Positions 2,522 to 40,354 of a stretch of 42,075 nt of DNA are shown in pieces. This DNA comes from a virus, in the IMG/VR virus record IMGVR_UViG_3300040801_001777, positions 1 to 42,075 of that record; one strand, 5' to 3'. The position numbers and the translations under genes were made by a program. The stretch's first letter is position 1. Every line of letters starts with the position of its first letter. A model generated the notes under the pieces. The model was given only the letters and a program-made list of their open reading frames with translations, was not told the origin of the DNA and did not search any database.

Positions 2522-3550
2522 ATGATTGCACTACCGCAGAGGACGCCTTCGAACAGACTGACCCACTCCCGGATGTCTTGCGCAAAGACGTGCCTTCGCA
2601 AGCACTATTTCGAGTACGAGCTGGGCCTCCGCAAGCTCGATACCGGCACGCCGCTGCGCGTCGGCTCAGCGTTTCATCTTGCCCTCGAAACCGCCGACCA
2701 GCACTCGATCAGCGACGCCATCACGGCTGTCCGAGACAATTATGCATCCCCACCCGAGTGGGTGACCGATCTCGACGCGTGGCTTGTTGAGCGCGAGATG
2801 GTCGAGCGTTTGTTTCTCGGCCACACATGGCGGTGGCAAGACGAGACGTTTGAGGTCGTCGCGACCGAGCAGGCGTTCGACCTGCCGCTGATCAACCCCG
2901 ACACCGGCCACGCTTCGAAGAATTGGCGGATGGCCGGGAAGATCGACCGCATCGTCCGCATGGCCGATGGGCGTCTGGCCGTCCAGGAATACAAGACCAC
3001 TTCGGAGGCGATCGACACCGCTTCGGATTACTGGCAGCGCCTTCGGTTGGATCAACAGATCAGCATGTACGTCGTCGCGGCCCGCGACCTTGGGCACGAC
3101 GTGGACACCGTCATCTACGACGTCACCCGCAAGCCCACGATCCGGCCCAAGAAACCGGTCAAGGCGGACGTCGCCAAGTGGCCGGCGTATTACGGCGAAA
3201 CCATGGTAGGCGAGGTGCCCGAGCGCGAGTCGCCAACCATGTACGGCTCGCGACTCAGCGCCGACATCGAATCACGCCCCGATTACTACTTTGCCCGTCG
3301 CGAAATCCCCCGGCTCGAATCTGACCTGGACGAGTTCCGCTACGAGCTGTGGCAGCAGGCCAAACAGCTTCGCGAGGCTCAGCTCCACGGCCGGTGGTTC
3401 CGCAACACGCAATCGTGCAGCAAGCCCTACCGCTGCACCTATTTCGACATCTGTGCCAACGGCATCGACCCCGCCGAGGGAGCCCCCGTCGGGTTTCGCT
3501 TTGTCGATGACGTGCACCCCGAACTCTCACCCGAGGAACCCGCACCATGA
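2522..3550 (+). CDS. PD-(D/E)XK exonuclease, Cas4/AddB-like with cysteine cluster
   Basis: This 342-residue protein matches the phage Cas4/RecB-like nuclease pattern. An N-terminal SRMSCAKTCLRKHYF segment holds the first cysteine (C20 or C24). GSAFHLALE follows, then the nuclease core GKIDRI with QEYKTT supplying D and E-x-K, the helix QISMY, and a C-terminal C-x5-C-x5-C cluster (C299, C305, C311) suited to a 4Fe-4S cluster. It probably resects DNA ends for the annealing proteins encoded just downstream. Although Cas4-like, no Cas1 or Cas2 is present, so a CRISPR role is not supported. It overlaps the next gene by 4 nt. Confidence 0.85.
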   Translation: MIALPQRTPSNRLTHSRMSCAKTCLRKHYFEYELGLRKLDTGTPLRVGSAFHLALETADQHSISDAITAVRDNYASPPEWVTDLDAWLVEREMVERLFLGHTWRWQDETFEVVATEQAFDLPLINPDTGHASKNWRMAGKIDRIVRMADGRLAVQEYKTTSEAIDTASDYWQRLRLDQQISMYVVAARDLGHDVDTVIYDVTRKPTIRPKKPVKADVAKWPAYYGETMVGEVPERESPTMYGSRLSADIESRPDYYFARREIPRLESDLDEFRYELWQQAKQLREAQLHGRWFRNTQSCSKPYRCTYFDICANGIDPAEGAPVGFRFVDDVHPELSPEEPAP

Positions 3551-4368
3551 CCCGCATCGCACCTCCCCCGCCCCCGCCGTCTGCCAAGAATGGAACGCCC
3601 GCCCGAACCAATTTTTCGATCTCAAAGGGCAGGGCTCGGCGGTCGCACCGCATCGGCATCTACGGCACGGGCGGCATCGGCAAATCGAAGCTCGCGTCGC
3701 TCATGAGCGAAGTCGGGCCCGAGCCGGTGTTCATCGATTTGGAAGGCAGTGCCCTCGATCTCGACGTGCAAAGTGTTGATGGCGCCTCGGGCTTTGACTG
3801 GTCTGACCTGCGGGCCTGCCTGGCGTCTGACGACTTTCCCGTAGACGCCCCGATCGTTATCGACACCGCAACCAAGGCCGAGCAGCTTGCGATCGCGCAC
3901 ACCCTAAAAACCGTGCCACACGAGAAAGGCCATCGCGTGAGCTCGATCGAGAGCTACGGCTTCGGCAAGGGGCTCACCCACGTCTACGAAACCTTCATGA
4001 CGCTGGTCGGCGACCTGGATCGACTGCACCGCAAGGGTCACAACGTCGTGCTGATCGCTCACGACTGCACGTCCAACGTGCCCAACCCCGGCGGCGACGA
4101 CTGGATTCGATACGAGCCGCGTCTGCAATCGCCCAATTCGGGCAAATCTTCCATCCGCCTGGCCGTCAAGGAATGGCTCGATCACCTGCTATTCGTAGGC
4201 TACGACGTGAATGTCAACAACGAAGGCAAGGCAACCGGCTCGGGAACCCGCACCATCTACCCCGTCGAGATGCCATCTCACATGGCCAAGTCGCGAACGC
4301 TCCGCGATCCGATCGTCTATCAGGACGGCGACGCCGAGCTTTGGCGTTCGATGTTGCAACCCGCCTGA
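3547..4368 (+). CDS. RecA-fold ATPase, Sak4-like recombinase
   Basis: The 273-residue protein has a Walker A motif GTGGIGKS at residues 40-47, a strand ending in FIDLEGS, and a Walker B-like stretch VVLIAHD, as in the phage AAA/Sak4 family of single-strand annealing or strand-exchange ATPases. Known Sak4 proteins work with a cognate SSB, and an SSB gene lies 39 nt downstream here. Together with the upstream nuclease this forms a phage recombination module. The proline-rich N-terminus (residues 5-12) is unusual and probably disordered. Confidence 0.82.
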   Translation: MTRIAPPPPPPSAKNGTPARTNFSISKGRARRSHRIGIYGTGGIGKSKLASLMSEVGPEPVFIDLEGSALDLDVQSVDGASGFDWSDLRACLASDDFPVDAPIVIDTATKAEQLAIAHTLKTVPHEKGHRVSSIESYGFGKGLTHVYETFMTLVGDLDRLHRKGHNVVLIAHDCTSNVPNPGGDDWIRYEPRLQSPNSGKSSIRLAVKEWLDHLLFVGYDVNVNNEGKATGSGTRTIYPVEMPSHMAKSRTLRDPIVYQDGDAELWRSMLQPA

Positions 4369-4407: not shown

Positions 4408-5121
4408 ATGTCTGATGTTCGATGGATTGATAGAGATGGCCGGTTCCGCGGCAAGGTCAGCGACGCCCGCATCCGCAAAGCTGACTCCGGCGCTGTGGGT
4501 CTGGAGCTCGACGTGCTGATCGACGAGATGTTCGCTGACGGCGAATGGCACGACTGGCGTGAGTACCAGGTCACCGCTCGCGGCACGCTCTGGCTCATCA
4601 AGAAAGACGGCTCGCTTAACGAGATGGCGAATGAGACGGCTCGCGACACGCTCGGCTGGGGCGGCGACCCGACCGACTTAGAGCCGTCCGGCTTCAAGCC
4701 CGTGTCGATCGTCGTGGAGGGCGAAGAATACAAGGGCAACGTCAAGCACAAGATTAAATGGTTCAATGGCTACAACGAGACCGGCACCGGAGGTGGCGCG
4801 TCGGAGTCGGAGATCAAAGACATCCTGGGCGTTCACGGCAGCAAGTTTCGCGCGTTCTATGGGGCTCCCGCGGGTGCAACGGCAACCGCACCGCCGAAGT
4901 CTCGGCCAGCGCCGCCACCCGTCGCAAAACCCGGCGAGGTAACGAAACAAGATGCCTGGCAGGCATTCAGCAAGACCCGCGGCGGGCTGGCCGAAGACGA
5001 ACAGGCCAAAGCGTGGGCGACGCTGCTGAGCTCGACCATCGCCGAGAAGGATGAGGATCAATTCACGTCTGCTGACTGGCACAAGGTGCTGGTCGCGGCG
5101 GACGACGACATCCCGTTCTGA
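4408..5121 (+). CDS. ssb: Single-stranded DNA-binding protein (SSB-like)
   Basis: The 237-residue protein ends in DDDIPF, the acidic tip by which bacterial SSBs recruit partner proteins. The N-terminal 125 residues are strand-rich and fit an OB-fold or the DUF669-like phage SSB group. A proline/alanine linker (about residues 155-180) separates it from a helical C-terminal region. The neighbourhood of nuclease, Sak4 and replication initiator supports the role. AAGAGG precedes the ATG. Hairpins follow immediately, suggesting the recombination operon ends or is attenuated here. Confidence 0.82.
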   Translation: MSDVRWIDRDGRFRGKVSDARIRKADSGAVGLELDVLIDEMFADGEWHDWREYQVTARGTLWLIKKDGSLNEMANETARDTLGWGGDPTDLEPSGFKPVSIVVEGEEYKGNVKHKIKWFNGYNETGTGGGASESEIKDILGVHGSKFRAFYGAPAGATATAPPKSRPAPPPVAKPGEVTKQDAWQAFSKTRGGLAEDEQAKAWATLLSSTIAEKDEDQFTSADWHKVLVAADDDIPF

Positions 5122-8439: not shown

Positions 8440-8723
8440 TGGATGTGAAGCGATGGCTGGAATTGCAGGCCGAGATCGACGCGCGCATGCATCTGCTGGA
8501 AGGCATGCATCAGAAGCAACGCGCTCGCTCGCCCCTGGATCAGATGATCGACGAAGCGACGGGGCACGAGGCCGCAACGACAGAAGGTCAGCTTGAATTG
8601 CTACGCGAGCTTATCCCGCTCTGGGAAGAACACGCCGAGGTGACGGGTCAAGACAACAGCGCCTTCATGGAAGGCGCGAAACAAATATTGCAGGCCGCGG
8701 AAGCGGCGGAAGGAGATGAGTGA
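8439..8723 (+). CDS. Helical hypothetical protein, 94 residues
   Basis: The protein is strongly helical and charged, with heptad-like spacing (MDVKRWLELQAEIDARMHLL), so a coiled coil is plausible. No family is recognised. The ATG at 8439 overlaps the preceding TGA by one base, and the gene ends directly before the J-domain gene. Confidence 0.65.
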   Translation: MDVKRWLELQAEIDARMHLLEGMHQKQRARSPLDQMIDEATGHEAATTEGQLELLRELIPLWEEHAEVTGQDNSAFMEGAKQILQAAEAAEGDE

Positions 8724-9449
8724 ATGAGGCGAGGCGAAACCAAGACGATCAACGGCGTGCAGGCGTACCCGCTGGCGTGGCCTGAGCACATTCCCAGACG
8801 ATCGGCGAGCGAGCGATCAAGCGGAAACTTTGGCACGGTTGAGAAAAATCAGAACGGCTGGAAGACCCGGCGTGCCATGACGATCGGGCGGGCGATCAAG
8901 CGGCTGCACGACGAGGCCAGCGCGTACACAAGAACGGGGCGTAAGTGGCGCATTGACCCGAGCCAGATCGTGATATCGAGCAACATGCCGACCCGCAATG
9001 ATGGGCTGCCCTACGCCTCCGCTAAAGCGCCTGATGACCCCGGTGTTGCGGTTTACTTTCGCCTCGACGAGGAAGACCAGTGCATCCCGATCGATACCTA
9101 TGACGCGGTCGCCGACAACATCGCGGCCGTTGCTGCGATTCTTGGGAACCTTCGCTCGTTGGAGCGCCACGGCCATCGCATCGTCAAGGCTGCATTCCAA
9201 GGATTCAAGGCGTTGCCCGGCGGCGATGGCGGCACCGCGACCGTGAGCGTTGAGGCGGCAGCTTCGATCATCGCGGCGGGTGCGGGCGCAGGCGAGTACA
9301 CCGCTGACGAGATCATCTCCAGCGCTTCCGTCGCCCGCATGGCCCACCGCAAGGCCGCATCCCGCCATCACCCCGACCGTGGCGGGGACGCAAAGCAGAT
9401 GGATCAGATCAACCGAGCGTGGGCGGAGTTGCGAAAGCATCATCTATGA
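8724..9449 (+). CDS. J-domain protein (DnaJ-like C-terminus)
   Basis: The 241-residue protein ends in a J domain: helix ARMAHRKAASR, the diagnostic HPD tripeptide (residues 216-218, within HHPDRGG), and helix QINRAWAELRK. The J domain is the part that stimulates DnaK ATPase. The N-terminal 190 residues are phage-specific and lack the G/F and zinc domains of DnaJ. Such proteins recur in phages with this replication gene order and are thought to redirect host DnaK, for example to replication or assembly complexes. It overlaps the next gene by 4 nt. Confidence 0.8.
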   Translation: MRRGETKTINGVQAYPLAWPEHIPRRSASERSSGNFGTVEKNQNGWKTRRAMTIGRAIKRLHDEASAYTRTGRKWRIDPSQIVISSNMPTRNDGLPYASAKAPDDPGVAVYFRLDEEDQCIPIDTYDAVADNIAAVAAILGNLRSLERHGHRIVKAAFQGFKALPGGDGGTATVSVEAAASIIAAGAGAGEYTADEIISSASVARMAHRKAASRHHPDRGGDAKQMDQINRAWAELRKHHL

Positions 9450-9679
9450 CCCCCGCCGACCACGAAGCCGCCGCCCTGCTGGGCATGCTGCAGCGCCGCC
9501 ACGGCCCGCTGCGTCTGGCCGAGCTGGTCGTGTCCAGCCCGGCCGCCGAGCGACTGATGCAGGACGGCCCGTCGGGCAGCCCGCACGACACGCTTAAGAG
9601 CCTGCGGATGTTGATTGAGATGAGCGAACCAGACGACAAAACAATGACGTTAAACACAACAAAACGATTGGAGCAATGA
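9446..9679 (+). CDS. Hypothetical protein, 77 residues
   Basis: A small protein with a helical N-terminus (ADHEAAALLGMLQRRHG). Near its C-terminus it carries RMLIEMSEP, encoded by a 27-bp sequence that recurs exactly at the end of the next gene. The first ATG at 9446 overlaps the stop of the J-domain gene. Function unknown. The shared C-terminal segment suggests its present end was created when the following cassette was inserted. Confidence 0.6.
   Translation: MTPADHEAAALLGMLQRRHGPLRLAELVVSSPAAERLMQDGPSGSPHDTLKSLRMLIEMSEPDDKTMTLNTTKRLEQ
9604..9630 (+). repeat. 27-bp direct repeat, left copy flanking the cassette
   Basis: Identical over 27 bases to 10242-10268, 638 bp away. Both copies are read in the same frame and encode RMLIEMSEP. 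They flank almost exactly the second hexapeptide-repeat gene. Confidence 0.9.
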
Positions 9680-10287
9680 AAATGAAAAAGATCACGCAGG
9701 ATGAGTTCGACGCCCTAACCATCGTTGATGGACGCCGCGTATGTCCGACCGCGGACTATTCAGCGATCGGCAGCTTCGGTGAGTTTTGCAGCTTCGGCGA
9801 GCGGTGCAGATTCGATGAGCAGTGCGGCTTCGGTGAGCAGTGCAGCTTCGGTGAGTGTTGCAGCTTCGGCGAGCAGTGCAGATTCGGTGAGCAGTGCAGC
9901 TTCGGCGAGGGTTGCAGCTTCGGCGAGTGGTGCAGATTCGGCAAGGATTGCAGCTTCGGCGAGGATTGCAGCTTCGGCGAGCGGTGCAGCTTCGGCAAGG
10001 GCTGCAGCCTAGAGGCCTTGGGCGTGCCGATGTTGACGCGGTGCGTGTGGTCTTGCGGTGGCCTGGGGTCTGAGGGTCGCACGACTTATGGCATCGCAAT
10101 GGCTTCGGGCGTGCATGTTCGATGCGGTTGCTGGTCTGGCGACCTGGCCGCATTCCGGGCAGAGGTGGCTAAGACACACGGCGAGAGTGGTCACGCCGAA
10201 GACTACCTGGCGCTGGTTGACATCTGGGCGCGCAAGCACCAGCGGATGTTGATTGAGATGAGCGAACCCCAGAAGGAGCAAGCGTGA
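9676..10287 (+). CDS. Cysteine-rich hexapeptide-repeat protein (CSFGE type)
   Basis: The 203-residue protein begins with MKMKKITQDEFDAL, resembling the start of the other repeat protein at 1290. It then has twelve consecutive hexapeptides of the form C-[S/R/G]-F-[G/D]-[E/K]-x (residues 33-110), and a C-terminal domain of about 90 residues containing CGCWSGDLAAFRAEV and HAEDYLALVDIW. Regular six-residue spacing suggests a left-handed beta-solenoid with stacked cysteine and phenylalanine ladders. Proteins with this layout are known from phages without an assigned role. ATG 9676 follows GGAG and overlaps the previous stop. The C-terminal RMLIEMSEP duplicates the end of its upstream neighbour. 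Confidence 0.78.
   Translation: MKMKKITQDEFDALTIVDGRRVCPTADYSAIGSFGEFCSFGERCRFDEQCGFGEQCSFGECCSFGEQCRFGEQCSFGEGCSFGEWCRFGKDCSFGEDCSFGERCSFGKGCSLEALGVPMLTRCVWSCGGLGSEGRTTYGIAMASGVHVRCGCWSGDLAAFRAEVAKTHGESGHAEDYLALVDIWARKHQRMLIEMSEPQKEQA
9772..10011 (+). repeat. 18-bp tandem repeats encoding CxFGEx hexapeptides
   Basis: About 13 units of an 18-bp motif based on TGCAGCTTCGGCGAG plus one variable codon. Units differ mostly at the last codon and at AGC/AGA. The array is capable of in-frame length change. Confidence 0.93.
10242..10268 (+). repeat. 27-bp direct repeat, right copy flanking the cassette
   Basis: Exact copy of 9604-9630, encoding RMLIEMSEP near the end of the hexapeptide-repeat gene. 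Recombination between the copies would delete the repeat gene and leave the upstream gene intact with the alternative ending PQKEQA. Confidence 0.9.
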
Positions 10288-10526
10288 TGAGTGACCAGCC
10301 AACCAAGACCAAGACACACAAACTCAATGCCCTGCTCGGCCCGAACGGCGAGATCATTGTCAGCAGCAGCGAGGCCGAGGCCGACTGGCTCTGGGACGCG
10401 ACAGAAGGCTGGGATTGCGACGAGTGCGACATCCGCAAGGCCGTTGTCACCATCACCGTGCCCGTGCTGGGCGTGCCGACGGTGCGGCTTGTCGGGGCGA
10501 TCGAAGTGGAGGCCACCCGTGACTGA
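10284..10526 (+). CDS. Hypothetical protein, about 80 residues
   Basis: A small acidic protein with two nearby cysteines in EGWDCDECDIRKAVV and a strand-rich second half (VVTITVPVLGVPTVRLVGAIEVEA). It starts at GTG 10284, overlapping the previous stop, or at ATG 10287. No family recognised. Confidence 0.6.
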   Translation: MMSDQPTKTKTHKLNALLGPNGEIIVSSSEAEADWLWDATEGWDCDECDIRKAVVTITVPVLGVPTVRLVGAIEVEATRD

Positions 10527-10605
10527 CCAGCCAACACCGAAGGCGGGGGATGTATCCGCCCGCCTCATCGAGCGAGACGGCAAGCCGGTCGGGGGTGCGG
10601 GATGA
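10519..10605 (+). CDS. Possible 28-residue protein
   Basis: A short frame from GTG 10519, which overlaps the previous gene, to TGA 10603-10605, which overlaps the ATG of the C5 methyltransferase-like gene. Its opening codes for TDQPTPK, close to SDQPTKT of the gene before it, so it may be a duplicated fragment. Support is only the overlaps. Confidence 0.35.
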   Translation: MTDQPTPKAGDVSARLIERDGKPVGGAG

Positions 10606-12161
10606 CCACCCACCTCTACTGCGAGCGGGTGATGAGTGGCTACGTCGCCTGGGTCGGGCAACCCGACGTCATCATGCTCGAAAACGTCGAAGAGTTTCAG
10701 CAGTGGGGCCTGCTCGACAAGCACGGCAAGCCCATCCGCGACGGCGCGTGTTTCAAGGCGTGGGTCAGCTCGCTGCGTGCGTTGGGGTACGACGTCGAGT
10801 GGCGCGAGCTGCGGGCCTGCGACTACGGCACGCCCACCACGAGGAAACGACTGTTCGTCGTCGCGCGGTGCGACGGCAAGCCAATCATCTGGCCGGAGAA
10901 AACACATGGGGCAGAGTGTGCGAGTAGTGGAGCGGCGGGCAGTGAAAAAAAACCGCGCCGTCACCACTTTGTCGAGATCGACAGCGAACAGCCCGATCGC
11001 AGTGGAATCCGCGGCCGACGCTCCACTACCCGCACACTTGAGCCCTACCGCACCGCCGCCGACATCATCGACTGGTCGATCCCGATGTGCTCGATCTTCG
11101 CCACGCCGGACGAGGCGAAGGCCTGGGCCAGATCTCGCGGCGTCCCGACCGCCCGCCGCCCGCTGGCCGACAACACCATGGCCCGCATCGCCCGCGGCCT
11201 GGTCCGCTACGTCATCCAGGCCCAGCGACCGTTCCTCGTGCCCTACCACCGAGAGCGTGAGGGCCAGGCCCCGCGGGTCCGCGACCTCGAGGACCCGGTG
11301 GCCACGGTCGCGACGGCCCCGATGGGCGTGGTGGATGCGAGGCTGGCAAAGGCCGACCGCAGCGAACGGGTCGCCGCGCTCATCGCCAAGCACAACGGCA
11401 GCGTCACGGGGCATCGGCCCGACCGCCCGCTAGGTTCGGTGACCGGCGTGGATTCGCACGCCGTGGCGGCGGCGTATCTGGCCAAGAACAGCAACACCTC
11501 AAGCAACGGTGCTTGCGTGAACGCCGCCGACGAGCCGCTTCGCACGGTGACTAGCTGCCACGATCAACAGCTTGTTGCAGCGTGCCTCTCTCGCGCCAGC
11601 AACAGCGATGTGACCTGGGGGGCCGGCGACCGATCGAGGGCCGCAGACGAGCCGATGCGGACGGTTACCGGGCGACACGACGAACAACTCGTCGCCGTGA
11701 ACCTCAGTCAGATGTATTCGTCGAATCGAGGCAGCAACGGCGATCCCCGCCAGCCGCACCCGACCGTCACCGCCAATGGCAACCACGCCTCGCTCGTCGC
11801 CAGCTTCCTGACCAAATATTACGGCCAGGGCGGGCAGCATCAGCGGTGCGATCGCCCGCTCGACACGGTGGTCGGCGTCGAGCGGTTTGGGTTGGTCACG
11901 GTCATGCTCAATGGCGAGCCGTGGGTGGTGGTGGACATCGCGGTGCGGATGCTCACCCCCCGCGAGCTCGCCCGCGCCCAGGGCTTCCGCGACGACTATG
12001 CCATCGACCGCACGGCAGACGGCCGCAGGCTGAGCAAACGCACGCAGGTCCGCCTCATCGGCAACTCGGTCTGCCGCCACGTCGCCCGCGCCCTGGTCGC
12101 CGCCAACGTCGTCGGCGTCTGCGACTGGGCGAGCGACCGCACGCTGGAGGCCGTGGCATGA
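10602..12161 (+). CDS. C5-cytosine DNA methyltransferase lacking motifs I-IV
   Basis: The 519-residue product has clear C5-methyltransferase elements: motif VI ENV (residues 27-29, in LENVEEFQQWG), motif VIII-like TTRKRLFVVA, and motif X GNSV (residue 487 on). A long variable region contains repeated P-x-x-TVT and LVA units. Motif I (DLFAGxGG), which binds SAM, and motif IV (PCQ), which holds the catalytic cysteine, are missing. In related phage enzymes they precede ENVEEF by more than 100 residues. Upstream sequence is taken by other small genes. The product is therefore probably inactive alone, or needs a partner. A run of eight A (10945-10952) lies in the gene. It overlaps the next methyltransferase by 4 nt. 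Confidence 0.72.
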   Translation: MTTHLYCERVMSGYVAWVGQPDVIMLENVEEFQQWGLLDKHGKPIRDGACFKAWVSSLRALGYDVEWRELRACDYGTPTTRKRLFVVARCDGKPIIWPEKTHGAECASSGAAGSEKKPRRHHFVEIDSEQPDRSGIRGRRSTTRTLEPYRTAADIIDWSIPMCSIFATPDEAKAWARSRGVPTARRPLADNTMARIARGLVRYVIQAQRPFLVPYHREREGQAPRVRDLEDPVATVATAPMGVVDARLAKADRSERVAALIAKHNGSVTGHRPDRPLGSVTGVDSHAVAAAYLAKNSNTSSNGACVNAADEPLRTVTSCHDQQLVAACLSRASNSDVTWGAGDRSRAADEPMRTVTGRHDEQLVAVNLSQMYSSNRGSNGDPRQPHPTVTANGNHASLVASFLTKYYGQGGQHQRCDRPLDTVVGVERFGLVTVMLNGEPWVVVDIAVRMLTPRELARAQGFRDDYAIDRTADGRRLSKRTQVRLIGNSVCRHVARALVAANVVGVCDWASDRTLEAVA

Positions 12162-39220: not shown

Positions 39221-39253
39221 GGCTAGACCCCATTGATAGGCCAGCGTTTTTTT
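39221..39253 (+). terminator. Terminator-like hairpin at end of late operon
   Basis: GGCTA (39221-39225) can pair with the TAGGCC region near 39237-39242 with one bulge, and a run of seven T follows at 39247-39253. It would end late transcription before the convergent minus-strand genes. The hairpin includes a 15-bp element repeated at 39793. Confidence 0.5.
39222..39236. repeat. 15-bp repeat GCTAGACCCCATTGA, copy 1
   Basis: Identical to 39793-39807. The two copies flank the minus-strand pair of genes. The right copy lies inside the divergent promoter/operator region. Confidence 0.85.
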
Positions 39254-39854: not shown

Positions 39855-39902
39855 CGGCCCGCCCCGGCCTGTCAGGGGCAGCACCCAAGATGGAGATGAT
39901 GA
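39855..39902 (+). repeat. 48-bp duplicated leader, copy 1
   Basis: Identical over 48 bases to 40307-40354, ending one base before the ATG in each case. It contains GCCCC/GGGGC arms (hairpin), a palindromic CCTGTCAGG core, and the ribosome binding region GGAGATGATGA. Confidence 0.92.
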
Positions 39903-40306: not shown

Positions 40307-40354
40307 CGGCCCGCCCCGGCCTGTCAGGGGCAGCACCCAAGATGGAGATGATGA
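40307..40354 (+). repeat. 48-bp duplicated leader, copy 2
   Basis: Exact copy of 39855-39902 placed before ATG 40356. The genes behind the two copies are not obviously related beyond MATNND/MTTNAP at their starts. Confidence 0.92.

Follow-up and report, generated by a model that had tools for sequence, protein, structure and literature searches.

How did a single phage gene come to lie between two exact copies of a 27-bp sequence, each of which is read near the C-terminus of a different protein? The window analysed here spans the phage record from end to end (42,075 bases), and a 117-bp terminal overlap closes the record. Three ORFs lie head to tail at 9446-10526, namely ORF1, a hexapeptide-repeat gene and ORF3 (Table 1). 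The repeat, GCGGATGTTGATTGAGATGAGCGAACC, is present as exact copies with a spacing of 638 bp, and a search of the whole record allowing up to 3 mismatches returned these 2 copies and, for the reversed control, 0. The copies share one codon phase and each is read R-M-L-I-E-M-S-E-P, copy 1 within ORF1 and copy 2 within the hexapeptide-repeat ORF (to 10287). Exact direct repeats of 27 bp therefore bracket one gene, and one of them lies at the 3' end of ORF1, the gene upstream, as its codons for RMLIEMSEP. A sequence-only reading of this DNA had described the repeat as exact, in frame and 638 bp apart, and this description was borne out when both copies were located and their codon phases were found to agree. 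The same reading had proposed that the gene between the copies is a cassette that can be gained and lost.

Table 1. Coordinates in the window of the repeat copies, the genes around them and the recombination genes.
Feature	Position	Strand	Details
Exonuclease-like protein adjoining Sak4	2522..3550	+	phrog_1218, E 7.5e-34
Sak4-like ssDNA annealing protein	3547..4368	+	phrog_124, E 4.6e-18
ORF1, 77-aa orphan	9446..9679	+	start ATG; C-terminal region SLRMLIEMSEP with repeat copy 1
27-bp direct repeat, copy 1	9604..9630	+	exact match to copy 2
Apparent AT-rich leader of the hexapeptide gene	9631..9681	+	also forms the final ORF1 codons (DDKTMTLNTTKRLEQ, then stop)
Hexapeptide-repeat (CSFGEx) beta-solenoid gene	9682..10287	+	phrog_20532, E 7.9e-9; alignments A1, A2 and A3; AlphaFold2
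27-bp direct repeat, copy 2	10242..10268	+	encodes the end of the last predicted helix of the hexapeptide protein
ORF3 (MSDQPTK...), 79 aa	10287..10526	+	from ATG at 10287; TGATG overlap with the hexapeptide gene stop

The gene between the copies encodes a protein that combines a CSFGEx array with a conserved N-terminus and a phrog_20532-type C-terminal domain, the latter assigned by a profile match spanning positions 25-85 of 100. Its start had at first been placed at 9676; the homologues in alignment A2 place it at 9682 instead. The match to the Pfam family Hexapep (PF00132) was below the gathering cut-off (14.8 vs 27 bits). The AlphaFold2 model has a mean pLDDT of 88.4 and short strands at six-residue intervals, and its last helix (170-194) takes in part of the repeat-encoded tail. 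A fold search of the PDB with this model gave no match at E 0.001 or better, and a viral structure library yielded 11 at E<=0.001; those with names are chiefly repeat proteins of the pentapeptide, hexapeptide or beta-solenoid kind. Scanning with the C-terminal alignment found 57 viral loci and with the N-terminal alignment 35, partly the same loci, and the phrog_20532-type domain was seen to pair with several kinds of solenoid repeat. Beyond a conserved Tyr, the tail of the window protein is 26 aa long compared to 11-17 aa in the other 8 proteins of its type; since the tail of L168 measures 24 aa, we treat the long tail as weak evidence for a cassette. Some family members end early or lose frame within the repeat array (L189 4001-4450, L197 1404-1721), which could reflect slippage in the 18-bp array. 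The window itself encodes a second solenoid-like protein (1077-2039), whose gene has internal exact repeats of up to 53 bp along with an 18-bp array coding for GIEAG/GIKAG; neither Pfam nor PHROG gave a match for it.

When the flanks are joined across the repeat, the hexapeptide gene is removed and ORF1 would end in RMLIEMSEPQKEQA and a stop codon, with a TGATG overlap to ORF3, which is the excision product originally predicted (the excised ORF1 reads ...SLRMLIEMSEPQKEQA and stop, then the TGATG overlap with the next ORF). The present end of ORF1 differs in composition from the rest of the gene, the GC3 being 0.92 in the ORF1 body vs 0.44 in the tail (9629-9676, 48 bases), where the GC content is 0.396. 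Past the repeat, the tail is AT-rich and lacks the GC3 signature, and therefore resembles the leader of the hexapeptide gene; judged by composition, it looks like that leader pressed into service as ORF1 codons. The locus thus has an exact repeat in one codon phase, a compositional break just past copy 1 and a junction that is restored on excision.

Probably, then, the 638-bp unit, composed of the leader and the hexapeptide-repeat gene, is an accessory cassette of one gene that inserted at the 3' end of ORF1. Insertion at this point would have left a second copy of the terminal 27 bp of ORF1 at the right junction, with the duplication arising via partial homology or a template switch. The hexapeptide gene would read through the right-hand copy and so acquire RMLIEMSEP as the end of its protein; the first copy, in ORF1, would now run on into the leader of the cassette. 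Recombination between the copies, by annealing or unequal crossing-over, could then delete or duplicate the cassette, perhaps aided by the Sak4/exonuclease pair. A phrog_124 profile match shows that the genome encodes a Sak4-like annealing protein, as the sequence-only reading had claimed, and this protein and the adjoining exonuclease might promote exchange between the 27-bp copies. We infer that the cassette arrived, as opposed to ORF1 having been altered, and that recombination can delete or duplicate it.

A homologous hexapeptide gene is carried by L137, an AT-rich phage contig that is unrelated to the window phage. A 626-aa gp46/SbcC-type gene of this contig ends in KENDISRLL, and a 17-bp sequence, R (AAAACGATATATCTAGA), occurs three times, at the gp46 end and at 4124 and 4348, where it marks the 3' end first of a complete hexapeptide gene copy and then of one with an internal deletion. 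The order is gp46-R-gene-R-gene(deleted)-R, the repeat-to-repeat tandem order that unequal crossing-over between repeats yields. The hexapeptide genes read R in another frame than gp46 does, and deletion from R to R would give a gp46 that ends in ...ENDISRIL and a stop codon, with ATGA shared between it and the gene that follows. Phage relatives of L137 gp46 (MA9V-3, BS-TP1 and Larrie) end in similar K-x-N-x-I/V-S/T strings, and the idea that the gp46 end is a hexapeptide remnant was dropped because these relatives share it.

The main rival to cassette entry is that the hexapeptide gene owned the RMLIEMSEP tail and was duplicated in tandem, after which the first copy was lost save for its last 27 bp, now fused to ORF1. 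Tandem copies of a homologous gene, one of them internally deleted, do occur in L137, tails in the same type reach 24 aa (L168), and to the left of the window repeat the copies match at 8/13 positions in codon phase (P 0.02 vs random codon-phase pairs). Against this, the L137 repeat is the conserved end of the upstream gene, read in a frame other than that of the hexapeptide gene; ORF1 ahead of the repeat has, by eye, no match to the hexapeptide protein; and excision gives back a clean ORF1 junction. We consider an array remnant unlikely.

Selection might instead have kept a functional protein tail or a regulatory site identical, for example a docking tag of two co-expressed proteins, and the shared codon phase and C-terminal position of both copies would agree with this. 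However, if RMLIEMSE had been encoded twice independently, the DNA would be the same with a probability of ~0.006 under the codon usage of the phage, so that, on codon statistics, common descent of the DNA appears likelier than protein-level convergence. The identity extends to unpreferred codons (usage TTG 0.12, ATT 0.155, GAA 0.23), the L137 repeat is read in two different frames, there is no further copy in the genome at up to 3 mismatches, and the only inverted repeat in 9400-10400 is one 8-bp palindrome (arm distances up to 60). Selection of this kind is accordingly an improbable source of the repeat. An assembly artefact or chance is more improbable still, because, although the contig comes from a virus collection, none of 60 order-3 Markov genomes of equal length had an exact repeat of more than 22 bp (maxima 15-22 bp, mostly 15-18 bp), so that every simulation fell short of the 27 bp seen here, and the record closes on its 117-bp overlap with intact coding frames on either side of the repeat.

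Further repeats were noted elsewhere in the window. A 48-bp exact direct repeat (39855-39902 and 40307-40354) serves as 5' leader to each of two successive small genes, and deletion between its copies would thus cleanly remove the first gene. In addition, GCTAGACCCCATTGA occurs twice, at 39222 and 39793 (571 bp apart), and is possibly an operator.

An empty site for the window phage was not found, no ORF1 relative being present in the collections searched, which may leave out near records. ORF1 gave no protein family match in profile searches, and a tblastn search of phages with E up to 1 found no relative; in viral_contigs, 16 stretches fitted a pattern for it and 0 were confirmed. A degenerate DNA pattern for RMLIEM.EP returned nothing from viral_contigs, and the DnaJ-like neighbour and the hexapeptide C-terminus, each used as a single query, had no relatives there. 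The sole genome_contigs locus for ORF1 among 226 stretches (L107) was rejected as spurious, since it matches the antisense strand of an oxidoreductase-like gene in a chromosome, with no phage gene seen nearby. Primase and head protease queries recovered 71 and 26 loci, respectively, from distant phages only, and in the loci gathered up to these searches tblastn matched none of ORF1, ORF3 and the DnaJ-like gene. The proposal of a cassette that is gained and lost is thus partly supported: its geometry and excision product stand, three lines of evidence (the composition of the ORF1 tail and, by analogy, L137 and the Island3/Brujita pair described below) favour it, and the form of ORF1 without the cassette was not found among the sequences searched.

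Is the arrangement common among genes of this type? Exact repeats of at least 17 bp, with one copy in the 200 bp ahead of the gene and the other at its 3' end, flank 4/57 hexapeptide-type genes compared to 5/1077 control ORFs (Fisher 6e-4), the controls being ORFs of 100-400 aa picked greedily by length, not annotated genes. The window was selected for having a repeat; without it, the count is 3/56 (p 0.005). To be among the 57, a gene needed 150 bp or more of upstream sequence, 130 bp around its 3' end and a final 60 nt distinct from those of the others; duplicates and genes running off a contig end were excluded, and L137 was represented by L186, from the same contig. The flanked genes are those of L186, the window, L169 and L151. 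At L169, a 21-bp ribosome-binding leader, AACCAAACCTCACACAAGGAG, stands at 3980, at 4674 and near 5040, before three consecutive genes of which two are solenoid-type. At L151, a palindromic promoter-like site (TTGACA...TATAAT) at 3319 and 4275 precedes the solenoid gene and the next gene. Two of the four flanked cases thus involve a repeated leader or promoter, which leaves only thin evidence that the family habitually inserts at 3' ends. Clear 3'-end repeats are those of the window and L137, with L158 and L125/L128 as possible cases. In L158, EGV, a stop codon and TGATG end both the upstream gene and the hexapeptide-type gene; in L125/L128, a 15-bp end of EVLP, stop and ATGA lies on either side of the gene, scoring 11 in the 57-gene test, which stopped before the start codon, and 15 with a wider span (44 genes, 461 controls). 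Convergence could account for the 15-bp repeats of these loci, in which a Shine-Dalgarno-like sequence is present along with a start codon. A DNA search for an empty site gave no match for L125 and, for L158, 11 records that matched solely query positions 1079-1363, the repeat array, with nothing usable among them.

It is a tentative and rather doubtful generalisation that Cys-type hexapeptide-solenoid phage genes are recurrent one-gene passengers that enter gene 3' ends, duplicate the last 15-30 bp and take the copy as their own C-terminus, in or out of frame, with recombination between the copies then amplifying or deleting them. Were this true of the family, such repeats would predict unstable small phage genes, and insertion history would be readable from single genomes. 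The window itself would hold a traceable scar of the gain of a single gene in a phage, in which the incoming gene was captured onto the 3' end of its neighbour. This pattern is seen elsewhere when phages gain or lose one gene by recombination, and there are hints that the hexapeptide family does so often.

T4-like phages reportedly carry promoter early stem-loop cassettes (PeSLs), said to have been described by Arbiol in 2010 and Comeau in 2014. According to the passages on PeSLs in PMC4503421, gene-boundary repeats are held to drive gene shuffling in these phages. The window likewise has its repeats at gene boundaries; unlike PeSLs as portrayed in those passages, its repeat is coding, and 8700-11000 contains 0 promoter-like and 0 terminator-like sites (sigma-70 consensus only), so that a PeSL cassette, which would have an early promoter and a stem-loop terminator at the junction, was set aside. 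A transposable element of the MPME or IS type was rejected, since no terminal inverted repeats were seen in 9400-10400 at arm distances up to 60 and the sole gene of the cassette belongs to no transposase family.

Mycobacteriophages offer three further cases. In Island3, the last 18 residues of gene 68 resemble those of gene 67, Brujita is without gene 68, and recombination between ~50-bp sequences is what the authors infer in the passages that concern this gene (Pope et al. 2011, PMC3029335). When we re-read the Island3 DNA, the gp67 and gp68 genes were found to share a 58-bp, 91% identical 3' end, of which Brujita, with no gene 68, has one copy. Here, as in the window, a small extra gene repeats the C-terminal residues of the upstream gene and the repeats lie in the 3' ends; in contrast to the window, the repeat is longer and diverged, the cargo is not of the hexapeptide type, and an empty-site relative exists in Brujita. 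The passages on LRRHood in the same paper (PMC3029335) place genes 43-46 between 29-bp direct repeats that are single copy in related phages. As described there, the direct repeat is of similar length to ours and also lies in the end of the upstream gene, whereas the unit comprises four genes, spans 1.35 kb and has a repressor as cargo. Corndog gene 14, as far as the relevant passages of PMC4351075 describe it, lies between 17-bp direct repeats of which the four relatives have one copy; it shares with the window a single small gene, short direct repeats and a position at a gene junction, and differs in its cargo and in having known empty sites. The process that we propose has already been described in mycobacteriophages, and the window, though short of empty-site proof, fits as a supporting example of it rather than as a new kind.
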